The notes under the pieces: generated by a model
The model's input: only the letters and a program-made list of their open reading frames with translations
What the model was told of the DNA's origin: nothing
Database searches by the model: none
Part shown: piece by piece, positions 1 to 47,315 of the stretch
Position numbering within the stretch: the first letter of the stretch is position 1
Layout: every line of letters starts with the position of its first letter
DNA from: Mesoplasma lactucae ATCC 49193
GTDB taxonomy: Bacteria; Bacillota_I; Bacilli_A; Mycoplasmatales; Mycoplasmataceae
Assembly (NCBI RefSeq): GCF_002441935.1
Contig: NZ_CP023668.1
Coordinates: forward strand, 1 to 64,000
Length of the DNA stretch: 64,000 nucleotides
Direction of reading: 5' to 3'
Translations under genes and position numbers: made by a program

Positions 1-63
1 TCCTCTGAACTTTATCTAATAAAGAATAAGAGAAAAATTGAAAAAAATCCCGAATTATTTTAA
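1..63 (+). CDS. possible C-terminal end of an upstream gene (partial)
   Basis: Frame 1 is open from the window edge to a TAA at 61-63 and encodes about 20 residues, rich in Lys and Glu (ending KNPELF). The other two plus-strand frames stop early. It may be the tail of a gene lying outside the window, but twenty codons are too few to identify a family or exclude chance. Confidence 0.3.
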   Translation, partial: SSELYLIKNKRKIEKNPELF

Positions 64-116
64 ATTTCTTTTTTGTTTTTTCTTTATAAAACCGCAAGAA
101 ATAGGGGTTTTAATAG

Positions 117-243
117 TATACAATGATTAATGCGGGTTGAACCACCAAGTAGATTCCGTAAAATATTATTAAAGAAATTCTACACTTACTCAAACGTGTT
201 GAATTTCAAGGAAGGAGGGCCTTCCTTATAGAAACAATACGAA
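117..243 (+). promoter_or_regulatory. promoter and structured 5' UTR of small-peptide locus 1 (antisense target)
   Basis: A -10-like TACAAT lies at 119-124; no good -35 is seen. The UTR has a long hairpin at 174-207: GAAATTC pairs with GAATTTC and, inside a U-U mismatch, ACAC pairs with GTGT, presenting the loop TTACTCAAAC (186-195). Bases 180-192 (CTACACTTACTCA) are perfectly complementary to the 5' end of the minus-strand small RNA at 367-437. A second hairpin at about 208-227 (AAGGAAGG/CCTTCCTT) buries a very strong Shine-Dalgarno-like sequence 25 nt before the ATG. Structure and complementarity are seen; translational control is inferred. Confidence 0.5.
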
Positions 244-303
244 ATGAATCAAGTATTAATACTTGTGCTGTTAGTTATCATTATTTACATTATTTCTAAA
301 TAG
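244..303 (+). CDS. 19-residue hydrophobic peptide (candidate type I toxin)
   Basis: ATG-TAG frame encoding MNQVLILVLLVIIIYIISK: a single membrane-spanning segment with a terminal Lys and almost nothing else. An in-frame TAG at 229-231 rules out a longer N-terminus. No conventional Shine-Dalgarno lies 5-10 nt upstream; the purine-rich AAGGAAGGAGG is about 25 nt away, inside a hairpin. The ORF sits between a structured UTR and a strong terminator and faces a convergent small RNA. Size, composition and context resemble membrane-active toxins of type I systems (Fst, Ldr and TxpA families), although the sequence is not recognisably one of them. It could instead be a chance ORF in a non-coding RNA. 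Confidence 0.45.
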   Translation: MNQVLILVLLVIIIYIISK

Positions 304-327
304 TTATTTAATAAATTAATAGTTAAA

Positions 328-356
328 ATGCATGTCGGGTGGGACATGCATTTTTA
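328..356 (+). terminator. terminator of small-peptide locus 1
   Basis: Nine-base-pair stem ATGCATGTC/GACATGCAT (328-336 with 343-351) followed by a T tract. It closes the peptide transcript about 25 nt after its stop codon. Confidence 0.8.
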
Positions 357-366
357 ATTTTTGAAA

Positions 367-437
367 TAAAAAAATAGATCTCGAAGGATCTATTTGTATG
401 CAATATTATGTAAATAATATTCCTACACTTACTCATA
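367..437 (-). ncRNA. small RNA complementary to the locus 1 5' UTR (candidate antitoxin)
   Basis: On the minus strand a perfect TATAAT (443-448) precedes a predicted start near 436. The first bases read UGAGUAAGUGUAG and are perfectly complementary over 13 nt to the UTR of the peptide transcript at 180-192. An A/U hairpin follows (AAUAUUAU/AUAAUAUU), then a terminator stem ATAGATC/GATCTAT (374-393) with seven U. The RNA would be about 70 nt. It converges tail-to-tail with the peptide mRNA and ends only about 10 bp from it. The geometry resembles the Fst/par system, where antitoxin RNA pairs through repeats far from its own terminator. No ORF is present. Confidence 0.6.
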
Positions 438-455
438 CTTTTATTATATACAAAA

Positions 456-489
456 AATAAAAAAAGTAATCTAAATTAATAGATTACTT
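456..489 (-). terminator. terminator of importer operon 1
   Basis: Ten-base-pair stem AAGTAATCTA/TAGATTACTT followed on the minus strand by a run of U. It lies 60 bp after the stop of the binding-protein gene and just upstream of the small-RNA promoter. Confidence 0.8.
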
Positions 490-552
490 AATAGAAATTA
501 CTTATTGGTTAATAAGTAAAGTCACCAAACCTCATTTGTATTTTACATCAAC

Positions 553-5731: not shown

Positions 5732-5845
5732 AAAAAAAGAGTGCTTCTTCTCCTATAACGAAAAAGCTACTCTCTTAATATATCTCATAGTCCCTAATTT
5801 GGATTAGGGGTGGAGTCAGTAGCCCGTTATGCTACCCTATATAAG
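5732..5845 (-). promoter_or_regulatory. 2'-deoxyguanosine-type purine riboswitch with terminator
   Basis: On the minus strand the aptamer spans 5845 to 5784: P1 CUUAUA/UAUGAG, P2 GUAGC/GCUAC with seven-base loop AUAACGG, J2/3 UGACUCCACC, P3 CCCUAA/UUAGGG and J3/1 AC. The C of GGGAC-UAUG is the guanine-reading position (C74 in xpt numbering). J2/3 carries C where guanine riboswitches have U51, the change that defines the Mesoplasma florum 2'-dG class; the segment GGGUAGCAUAACGGGCUAC is also very close to that class as I remember it. A terminator stem follows (5738-5773) with seven U, then the nuclease gene. Ligand binding by 2'-dG would stop transcription; this is inferred from the family. Confidence 0.8.
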
Positions 5846-6052
5846 CTTTTCTTGTAATATTCAGTTTCTAACTTAATCTTACTTAATCTTTTTTGAAAAA
5901 GTAGACTTGACATTAAAATAATAGTTTCAAAATGAAACTAAAAATGTGGATAACTTAATCTAAGGTTTTACTCTTAGGCTTTGTTGCATTTCTAATTCAC
6001 AAAAAGAATTTTTTCCAATATTTAAATAAATTTTAGAGTTTATTCCAAGAAT
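5846..6052. other. non-coding stretch upstream of the riboswitch, single DnaA-box-like site
   Basis: No convincing gene. It must hold the minus-strand promoter for the riboswitch transcript; a TATTAC-like -10 lies about 12 nt before the aptamer but is weak. TGTGGATAA at 5945-5953 matches a DnaA box. Three copies of ACTTAATCT occur at about 5871, 5881 and 5953. Confidence 0.4.
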
Positions 6053-45511: not shown

Positions 45512-46282
45512 ATGAGTATGTTAGATTTTAAATACCATTATTTATTAACTATTAGTTATGATGGTTCTAGTTTTAATGGTTGAATTATTCAAAATAATAA
45601 AAGAACCATTCAAGGTGAATTAACAAAAGCCTTAAATAAGTTAACAAAAAAAGCAGATTTCAGTCTGCTTGGCGCTAGTAAAACTGATGCTAAAGTTCAT
45701 GCTTTAGATCAAAAAGTTTTGTTAGGTGTTGATTTTGAAATTAAGAATTTAAGCTTATTTAAAAGAGGACTAAATCGTAGTTTACCTCTCGATGTTAGAG
45801 TGAATGATTTAATAACCGTTGATAAAGATTTTAAAGTTCGTGATGTAAAACAAAAAACTTATCGTTACACAATTAATGATCAAAACTTTGACTTATTTAC
45901 GCAACGTTATGAATTAAATTGGTTTGAAGAAGAAATTGATATTAATAAACTTCAAGAAATATTTAACCTTTTTGTTGGTAGTCATGATTTTTATTTATTC
46001 TCAGGTTTATCTGAAAAAGAAAAAGCTGATTTTAAAACCACAAGAGATATTGAAGAAATTAAAGTTTTAAGAAATAAAGAAAATAAGATTGAAATCTATT
46101 TCAAAGCCAAAGGATTTATCCGTTATCAAATTAGAATGATTGTTGCTGCAAGCTTACAATGTTATTTAAATTCAAAAAGAAGTAGTGTTGAATTAATCAA
46201 AGAACGTTTAAACGGTAAAGGGGATAAATCTCCTTTTAATATTGATGCAAAAGGTCTTTGTTTAATGAAAATCGAATATTAA
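45512..46282 (+). CDS. truA: tRNA pseudouridine(38-40) synthase
   Basis: 256 residues; modifies the anticodon arm. YDGSSFNGW near the N-terminus and the catalytic Asp in SKTDAKVHA (canonical GRTDAGVHA) are visible, as is KAKGFIRYQIRMIV for the C-terminal motif. The residues around the catalytic Asp differ from consensus (Ser-Lys for Gly-Arg, Lys for Gly) but the Asp is intact. It ends the ecfA1-ecfA2-ecfT-truA operon, a common arrangement in Firmicutes. Confidence 0.92.
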
Positions 46283-46374
46283 TGTTCTATAATAAAGACG
46301 TGAAAAAATGTTGGGGTTTCGAAAGAAATACAATGTAAAAGTGATTGATGTAATTTCAATCACTTTTTATTTTG
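46283..46374 (+). ncRNA. small RNA unit 1 (orphan, antitoxin-like)
   Basis: TATAAT (46288-46293) directly after truA, predicted start about 46300. The RNA begins GUGAAAAAAUGUUGGGG, has a GUUUC-GAAA-GAAAU hairpin, then a strong terminator (AAAGTGATTGA/TCAATCACTTT, 46338-46366, then T). About 75 nt, no ORF. Same layout as unit 3, but the 5' seed differs and has no complement in this window. Confidence 0.55.
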
Positions 46375-46388
46375 TCAAAAATCAAATG

Positions 46389-46447
46389 TATAATACCTAT
46401 GTGAAGAAATGATGATGGTTTCAGAAAAACATTGTTACTTTTAAAAA
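46389..46447 (+). ncRNA. small RNA unit 2 (orphan, possibly degenerate)
   Basis: TATAAT at 46389-46394, exactly 101 bp after that of unit 1. The predicted RNA starts near 46401 with GUGAAGAAAUGAUGAUG and has a weaker GUUU-CAGAA-AAAC hairpin and AUUGUUACUU. No clear terminator stem follows, so this copy may be decaying or may end in the U/A-rich stretch after 46438. Confidence 0.4.
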
Positions 46448-46488
46448 TATTTATATAAGATAGATTAATCATTATAGATATTAAGATG

Positions 46489-46570
46489 TATAATATAAGT
46501 GCGTTGAAGTAACATGAGTTTCGAAAGAAACACAATTACTTAAAAATGGTTGGCTAACAACCATTTTTTT
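46489..46570 (+). ncRNA. small RNA unit 3, complementary to the locus 2 5' UTR (candidate antitoxin)
   Basis: TATAAT at 46489-46494, 100 bp after unit 2; start near 46501. Bases 46502-46518 (CGUUGAAGUAACAUGAG) are perfectly complementary over 17 nt to the UTR of the minus-strand peptide transcript (46780-46796). Then GUUUC-GAAA-GAAAC forms a hairpin, enclosed by AAGUAA/UUACUU, and a terminator ATGGTTG/CAACCAT with seven T ends the RNA at 46570. It is convergent with the peptide transcript and stops about 7 bp from its terminator. The same geometry is seen at 117-437. Confidence 0.65.
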
Positions 46571-46576
46571 ATACCA

Positions 46577-46606
46577 AAATAAAAACACGGACTGCTATTC
46601 CCGTGT
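46577..46606 (-). terminator. terminator of small-peptide locus 2
   Basis: ACACGG/CCGTGT stem with a U-rich tail on the minus strand, 18 bp after the peptide stop codon. Confidence 0.7.
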
Positions 46607-46623
46607 GATTACCATAATTATTA

Positions 46624-46698
46624 CTATCCGAAGAGAATAATAATTATTACAATAATAGCTATGATTGAAGTCACAGCTACAATTGCTAAGAGTTTCAT
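46624..46698 (-). CDS. 24-residue hydrophobic peptide (candidate type I toxin)
   Basis: ATG at 46698 to TAG at 46624. The peptide starts MKLLAIVAVTS and continues as an Ile/Val-rich segment to IIILFG: one membrane helix with a single Lys at the N-terminus. AAAGGA lies 6 nt upstream. An in-frame TTG at 46734, 8 nt after a stronger AAGGAAGGAG, would add 12 residues including KGK; either start is possible. It is preceded by hairpin CCUUUCC-AAC-GGAAAGG, which covers the nearer ribosome site. Like the 244-303 peptide in size and context, but not in sequence. Confidence 0.5.
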   Translation of the reverse strand: MKLLAIVAVTSIIAIIVIIIILFG

Positions 46699-46734
46699 TA
46701 GTTTTCCTTTCCGTTGGAAAGGTAAATTGTACAA

Positions 46735-46859
46735 AACAATCACTCCTTCCTTTACCATTAAGGAACTAATGCTATTCTACGTTGAAGTAACATGAGCCCC
46801 TAGGACAACGCTTCGATCGAAATCGCCAGCAGTAAGACAAAGTCCATAAATTAATTTTA
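46735..46859 (-). promoter_or_regulatory. structured 5' UTR and promoter of small-peptide locus 2
   Basis: A -10-like TAAAAT (46854-46859, minus) precedes about 110 nt of UTR. The UTR folds into GGAC/GUCC around a CGAU-UUCG-AUCG hairpin, and a CGUUG/CAACG hairpin (46780-46810) whose 21-nt loop holds the sequence complementary to small RNA unit 3. AAGGAAGGAG follows and may pair with CCUUUCC downstream. The arrangement mirrors 117-243: target loop first, purine-rich ribosome-site motif next, occluding hairpin, then ATG. Confidence 0.5.
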
Positions 46860-47315
46860 CATTACATTTTTTTAATCATTTGCAAGTGAAATTTCAAACG
46901 ATTTTTAAAAATCATCCTATTAGTTTATTGAAGAAAAACTTCTTTAAATTCAGTTGTTATTATGGAATTAAACCTAAATGTGAGATATGATTTAAACAAG
47001 TGATACAGATAACTAAAACAATGTCACTAAATAATAAATAAAGTTAAGAATTAATTATTGATATTTTATTTAAGTTTTTGGATGAGCATTCCTATGAGTG
47101 TGAGAAGGAAATTAAAATTAATATGAATTATTAATTATTCGTTCTGTATGACTAATGATAGGTATAAACCTATCTTTTTTTATTCTTTTTTGTGCTGAAA
47201 TAAGTTAAAATAAACTCATAAGTTTTAATTATTATCAGATAATAGAAATATAATTATAAAAGACTTTAAAAACGTTTAAATAAATTAACAATAAAAAAGA
47301 GAAAGGGAATGTGGA
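46860..47315. other. intergenic stretch before the giant permease
   Basis: No convincing gene. Small hairpins occur at about 46898-46912 and 46930. A clear terminator, GATAGGT/ACCTATC followed by T (about 47157-47182), shows that some short plus-strand transcript ends here; its start is not obvious. Possible frames (16 codons from 46963, 43 codons from 47082) lack ribosome sites or run through the terminator. The permease promoter should lie between 47185 and 47300. Confidence 0.4.

Follow-up and report, generated by a model that had tools for sequence, protein, structure and literature searches.

Candidate type I toxin-antitoxin modules with diverged seed/target pairs and tandem orphan small RNAs in Mesoplasma lactucae

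What is encoded between truA (ending at 46282) and an FtsX-like permease gene (47316) of Mesoplasma lactucae ATCC 49193, where a short hydrophobic open reading frame (ORF) on the minus strand faces a small RNA (sRNA) on the plus strand that is complementary to its leader? We analysed this locus, here called locus 2, within the window, the 64,000 nucleotides that begin at base 1 of contig NZ_CP023668.1 (837,471 bases, 29.8% GC), in whose genome TGA is a tryptophan codon. Locus 2 is likely to be one of five paralogous type I toxin-antitoxin modules in the genome, each orthogonal to the others. The best reading of the sequence is that these form a new type I family, in which target/seed pairs would have diverged while the promoters stayed alike.

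A hydrophobic-peptide mRNA and its convergent small RNA

The predicted minus-strand mRNA carries, from 5’ to 3’, an ACUGCUG site in its 5’ untranslated region (UTR), a target hairpin, a hairpin over the Shine-Dalgarno (SD) sequence, which is contained in CCTTTCCAACGGAAAGG, a 24-codon ORF and a terminator (Table 1). An earlier, model-made annotation of this DNA (the original prediction) had proposed an ORF of 24 or 36 residues, and both lengths hold, the longer one from a possible TTG start. The promoter (TAAAAT) and terminator were called by inspection, and the transcription start, ~46847, was placed by inference.

The cognate sRNA, S3, consists of a free 5’ end, a GUUUC-GAAA-GAAAC hairpin (46518-46531) and a terminator. 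An exact 17-nt repeat, CGTTGAAGTAACATGAG, occurs at 46502-46518 in S3 and at 46780-46796 in the target, so that positions 46796-46780 within the target hairpin, which lie ~80 nt before the ATG (46698), are the exact complement of the S3 5’ end, as had been predicted. G-U pairs lengthen this match to 23 bp (-35.5 kcal/mol). The two terminators are separate and differ in sequence (46542-46572 vs 46576-46606); S3 and the mRNA lie tail to tail without overlap, and the seed and target are therefore their sole complementarity. The convergent pair with both its terminators was thus correctly recognised, but the locus starts earlier than had been proposed, since two further sRNA genes (46288-46373 and 46389-46455) had been missed.

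Table 1. Coordinates of the features of loci 2 and 1 in the window.
Feature	Position	Strand	Basis or detail
Orphan sRNA gene S1	46288..46373	+	TATAAT, other seed, S3-type hairpin, terminator 46337-46373; fold z = -4.35
Orphan sRNA gene S2	46389..46455	+	TATAAT box and a related 5’ region; both the hairpin and the terminator are degraded; z ~ 0
-10 box TATAAT of S3	46489..46494	+	sequence
Cognate antitoxin-like sRNA S3	~46501..46572	+	5’ seed, hairpin, terminator; fold z = -5.04
Predicted toxin mRNA, locus 2	46576..46847	-	from ~7 nt past TAAAAT (46859-46854) to its own terminator
ACUGCUG site in 5’ UTR, complementary to terminator loop	46827..46833	-	pairing analysis
Target hairpin	46760..46801	-	fold z = -4.05
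Hairpin CCUUUCCAACGGAAAGG over SD	46706..46722	-	sequence inspection
Toxin-like peptide ORF MKLLAIVAVTSIIAIIVIIIILFG	46698->46624	-	24 codons; translation
Toxin mRNA terminator	46576..46606	-	loop AAUAGCAG, with 5’-pairing sequence UAGCAGU
AATCCCGAATTATTTTAAATTTC element	46..68	+	upstream of locus 1 toxin promoter; recurs at loci 3, 4 and 5, ahead of the toxin gene
Toxin-like mRNA, locus 1	124..355	+	target hairpin 174-207, SD-region hairpin 208-227, terminator 325-355
ORF MNQVLILVLLVIIIYIISK, locus 1	244-303	+	within mRNA 124..355
Cognate sRNA gene U1, locus 1	364..448	-	-10 box 448-443; covariance E = 0.0074
Orphan sRNA gene U0, locus 1	457..548	-	upstream of U1; weak covariance match, E = 0.23

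Five modules and their base-pairing

Scanning the genome for a promoter, a seed, a repeated target, a convergent hydrophobic ORF and a terminator returned only four real modules (loci 1-4) and none in a reversed-genome control; locus 5, whose seed contains one internal G-U, was found by hand via the conserved upstream element. The modules lie at 1-541 (locus 1) and 46.3-46.9 kb (locus 2) of the window and at 534 kb (locus 3), 367 kb (locus 4) and 836 kb (locus 5) of the genome. The original prediction knew of two such layouts and held chance to be unlikely, with which the empty control agrees; there are, however, five modules, and to call the occurrences independent was too strong because the promoter of four of them (loci 1, 3, 4 and 5) is shared by descent and loci 2 and 3 have an sRNA hairpin in common. 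The purine-rich motif said to precede the ATG recurs loosely, but that of locus 1 is found in a hairpin 17-36 nt upstream. A search of the module against Rfam gave nothing above the gathering score.

The five cognate sRNA-mRNA duplexes have energies of -24.0, -35.5, -24.3, -32.3 and -26.1 kcal/mol, and each beats every non-cognate pairing (at best -19.8 kcal/mol for any cognate sRNA and -20.9 for any orphan, within the random-genome background). The earlier proposal of a family with orthogonal specificities thus emerges stronger than it was made, since no sRNA pairs well with any mRNA but its own. Target hairpins are present in 5/5 loci (z -2.3 to -4.7). Such complementarity could be a by-product of local duplication, with neither RNA a functional gene, as AT-rich genomes generate repeats and four loci do have a promoter in common by duplication; yet the repeats are limited to seed and target, are different in each locus and are flanked by promoters, hairpins and terminators, and the absence of modules from the reversed genome, together with the 5’-3’ covariation described below, leaves this explanation almost no credence.

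A start codon and a strongly hydrophobic frame of 19-27 codons stand at an equal position in all five RNAs. Genome-wide, 8 of 6,580 ATG ORFs of 17-40 codons reach KD15 >= 3.4, and four of the eight are in modules. The five peptides, which at the remaining three loci read MTNESLKVLTICLCFVTIIIVVILLSK, MEVKFTKTLSLVVSLITVIIIVIILS and MKTLQIVMITIIIVVIILGR, are similar in hydrophobicity and unlike in sequence. Conservation among the modules is strongest in the promoters and the RNA pairing rather than in the peptide sequence, as would be expected if the long RNA acted as RNA, as target or sponge of the tandem sRNAs, and the ORF were incidental; that a start codon and a frame of so rare a composition recur in every one of the RNAs makes this very improbable. 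As a separate observation, the start of a lipoprotein gene (genome 195280-195320) is similar, at 83% across 42 nt, to the ribosome-binding site and opening codons of the locus 2 ORF, and the peptide may derive from a signal peptide or the likeness may be chance.

The original prediction overlooked a second kind of pairing, within the mRNAs themselves. In all five, the terminator loop is able to pair with a 5’-UTR site at a near-equal distance from the 5’ end, through the cores CCACC/GGUGG, CUGCU/AGCAG, CCACU/AGUGG (two loci) and CCGCU/AGCGG. When the five core pairs are set out across the five loci, 25/25 cells pair, sliding the partner abolishes this pairing, and three of the five columns are altered on both sides (compensatory), a count biased towards pairing because the underlying alignment was arranged by hand around the core. 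A search-based score gave a summed run length of 34, as compared with a mean of 17.9 and a maximum of 29 in 20,000 draws from the other terminator loops of the genome, and among the 120 possible loop-to-UTR assignments only the true one attains the observed score. These results suggest that the mRNA would be locked 5’-to-3’, as in hok and aapA, whose mRNAs hold a 5’-3’ long-distance interaction that is opened by 3’ trimming (PMC6733600).

Tandem orphan small RNAs and module evolution

The sRNA genes, likewise overlooked in this respect, are arranged in tandem, one to three per locus, and comprise five cognate and six orphan genes. The orphans lie upstream of the cognate sRNA (S1 and S2 at locus 2, R1 and R2 at locus 3, T1 at locus 4, U0 at locus 1). 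All have a -10 box, their seeds differ, and in most the hairpin is the same; terminators are kept in S1, R1, R2 and U0 and lost in S2 and T1. Only the sRNA nearest the toxin gene matches the toxin mRNA. For none of the six orphans was a convincing target found in the five mRNAs, the rest of the genome or two related genomes, where the longest matches to their seeds (13-15 nt) are at chance level. A covariance model trained on S1, S3, R1, R2, R3 and T2, whose own strong scores follow by construction from the training set, recovered the untrained U1 (E = 0.0074), T1 (0.061) and U0 (0.23), and the locus 5 sRNA went undetected. Tentatively, and with considerable doubt, we suggest that an old antitoxin stays queued upstream after its target and seed have been replaced, where it might guard against sibling toxins of other strains or mobile elements.

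Loci 1 and 5 have promoter regions that align over 131 columns at 98% identity, whereas their UTRs reach only 46%; loci 3 and 4 have the same promoter in a more distant form, and locus 2, without the shared promoter element, has its sRNA hairpin in common with locus 3. Since promoters are alike where UTRs have diverged, and since a hairpin is common to loci 2 and 3, the modules appear to duplicate, after which seed and target change together. The sharp boundary between promoter and body could alternatively reflect cassette exchange or gene conversion. Two extra copies of the AATCCCGAATTATTTTAAATTTC element, at 195.7-195.9 kb and 207.8-207.9 kb of the genome, are without a recognisable module and may be module remnants. 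Between modules 5 and 1 lies a Fic/DOC-family gene (genome 836586-837303), so that a gene which may encode a protein-type toxin is bordered by two RNA-type modules. The contig ends overlap by ~79 bases (genome 837393-837471 and 1-79) inside the repeated module promoter, and the locus 1 junction may therefore be an assembly seam.

Mechanism, known systems and distribution

A mechanism consistent with this anatomy can be proposed. The minus-strand mRNA would encode a 24-residue membrane peptide, presumed toxic, and at full length would be silent, its terminator loop paired with the 5’-UTR site and its ribosome-binding site held in a hairpin; 3’ trimming would free the 5’-3’ pairing and make the mRNA translatable. 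A short-lived S3, made from the convergent promoter, would invade the exposed target hairpin by its free 5’ end over 17-23 bp, and the duplex would both block translation and give RNase III, a gene for which is encoded in this genome, a substrate. Were sRNA synthesis to stop, by loss of the locus or by a shut-off of transcription under stress or phage attack, the longer-lived mRNA would be trimmed and translated, and the peptide would damage the membrane. The tandem orphans would be leftover or relative-directed antitoxins of earlier target/seed pairs.

Several points weigh against a toxin-antitoxin function. Transcription, RNA stabilities, processing, toxicity and biological role are all things we infer, unlike the anatomy, complementarity, orthogonality, covarying 5’-3’ pairing and paralogous sRNA arrays, which can be read in the DNA itself. 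The 5’-3’ pairing is weak at locus 1, with 5 bp only and not top-scoring, and the covariation counts rest on five sequences, paralogous rows that are few and related. Four of the peptides, scanned against Pfam and NCBIfam, matched no family; no orthologue was found in any other genome examined. The product might be a small membrane protein that does no harm and modulates a partner, with the sRNA an ordinary cis-antisense regulator: many small membrane peptides are regulators, and locus 2 adjoins the permease gene. Against this, the genes beside the five loci are unrelated (truA, typA, rpsO/tRNA-Trp, a Fic/Doc gene), the peptides have little in common other than hydrophobicity, unlike a partner-binding regulator, and the mRNA is apparently built for silence by its 5’-3’ pairing and SD hairpin, as known toxin mRNAs are; we therefore regard a harmless regulator as unlikely and retain the toxin-antitoxin interpretation.

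Type I systems have been discovered mainly through sequence similarity to known toxins. The modules would belong among them rather than in a separate category, having a small hydrophobic peptide ORF and an adjacent antisense RNA complementary to its mRNA. According to a 2025 paper (PMC12390103), the phyla with known type I systems were Proteobacteria, Firmicutes and Tenericutes alone, so that one in a mollicute would in itself have precedent; our literature search found none described in Mesoplasma. The par/Fst system (RNA I/RNA II, par of pAD1; PMC7472228) is likewise of a Gram-positive lineage and has convergent promoters, a small hydrophobic peptide, DNA direct repeats that make the RNAs complementary and a ribosome-binding site in an intramolecular hairpin (46706-46722 here). 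In par/Fst, however, the two RNAs share a bidirectional terminator that is the first contact site, and the repeats DRa/DRb lie over the start, whereas the modules have two separate terminators, a single repeat placed well ahead of the start codon and tandem orphan antitoxin RNAs, and none of the five peptides shows, by eye, the Fst signature (PXXXG-type motif, charged C-terminus). Judged by sequence, the modules would work like par/Fst yet are not a member, as the shared terminator, the start-codon repeats and the peptide signature are all lacking.

As in aapA/IsoA of Helicobacter (PMC6733600) and hok/sok, there are several paralogous chromosomal copies, hairpins covering the SD and a predicted silent mRNA whose 5’-3’ interaction would be releasable by 3’ trimming; unlike there, the antitoxin is convergent, downstream and without ORF overlap, the 3’ partner is a terminator loop that meets a 5’-UTR site rather than the SD, and the sequences are unrelated. 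The ldr/rdl loci of E. coli (PMC4147584) likewise recur in the chromosome, some of them in tandem, and combine a short hydrophobic peptide with an RNA of ~60 nt. Each ldr/rdl repeat has both genes, whereas in the present modules only the sRNA genes recur in tandem, with new seeds. Type III ToxIN (PMC4147584) similarly has tandem RNA repeats beside a toxin gene; the modules differ in having no RNase toxin and in a predicted action by base pairing, and each of their tandem units has a promoter of its own and, in most cases, a terminator.

The covariance search proposed earlier gave matches at E <= 1e-4, under strict filters, in the source genome and nothing in the 319 other genomes of the 320 covered in the order. 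Among 60 genomes of the family, four weak outside matches (E 7e-4 to 8e-3), mostly plain terminators, were rejected, none having a seed repeat and ORF. Compared with 40 relatives, module DNA gave only short low-complexity matches outside the source genome. The geometry scan, which is independent of sequence, revealed no credible module in a same-genus genome (767 kb, 32.8% GC; all but a few hundred bases covered), nor in a second genus, of which it covered 84%; its single weak candidate was rejected, having a gap of 484 nt and a peptide that does not match. A scaffold pattern run over 85,000 genomes gave 13 matches scattered over unrelated phyla, about the number estimated for chance, with none in viral contigs and no plasmid match. 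As TruA of the nearest relative is merely 59% identical, a fast-evolving family could have been missed or lost; a TruA search against a set of genome contigs returned no match. One of the four weak family matches, in a Spiroplasma-group genome (L084, G050:C1:763474-763567), is an sRNA-like unit that starts with TATAATATAAGTGCG, as S3 does, with a hairpin and terminator and no convergent ORF.

Two further noncoding elements lie in the window. The segment at 47014-47180, after truA, is conserved in related genomes and has a terminator at its end; it is 85% identical over 85 bp in one relative (L117) and weaker in three others (L118, L121, L126), its part AAACAATGTCACTAA is present in further relatives as well, and it has no match in Rfam. 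A 2dG-I riboswitch, of a family described from Mesoplasma florum, is found at 5783-5846 (66.7 bits).

A near-minimal genome with five such modules, orthogonal to one another, would offer a natural series on the evolution of RNA-RNA specificity, and the five seed/target pairs may be usable as orthogonal RNA switches in a small-genome chassis. The orphan arrays pose a question that is rare for known type I loci, namely what maintains antitoxins that have lost their toxin; if the tentative explanation given above is true, each array would be a queue of RNA immunities next to a constantly renewed toxin.
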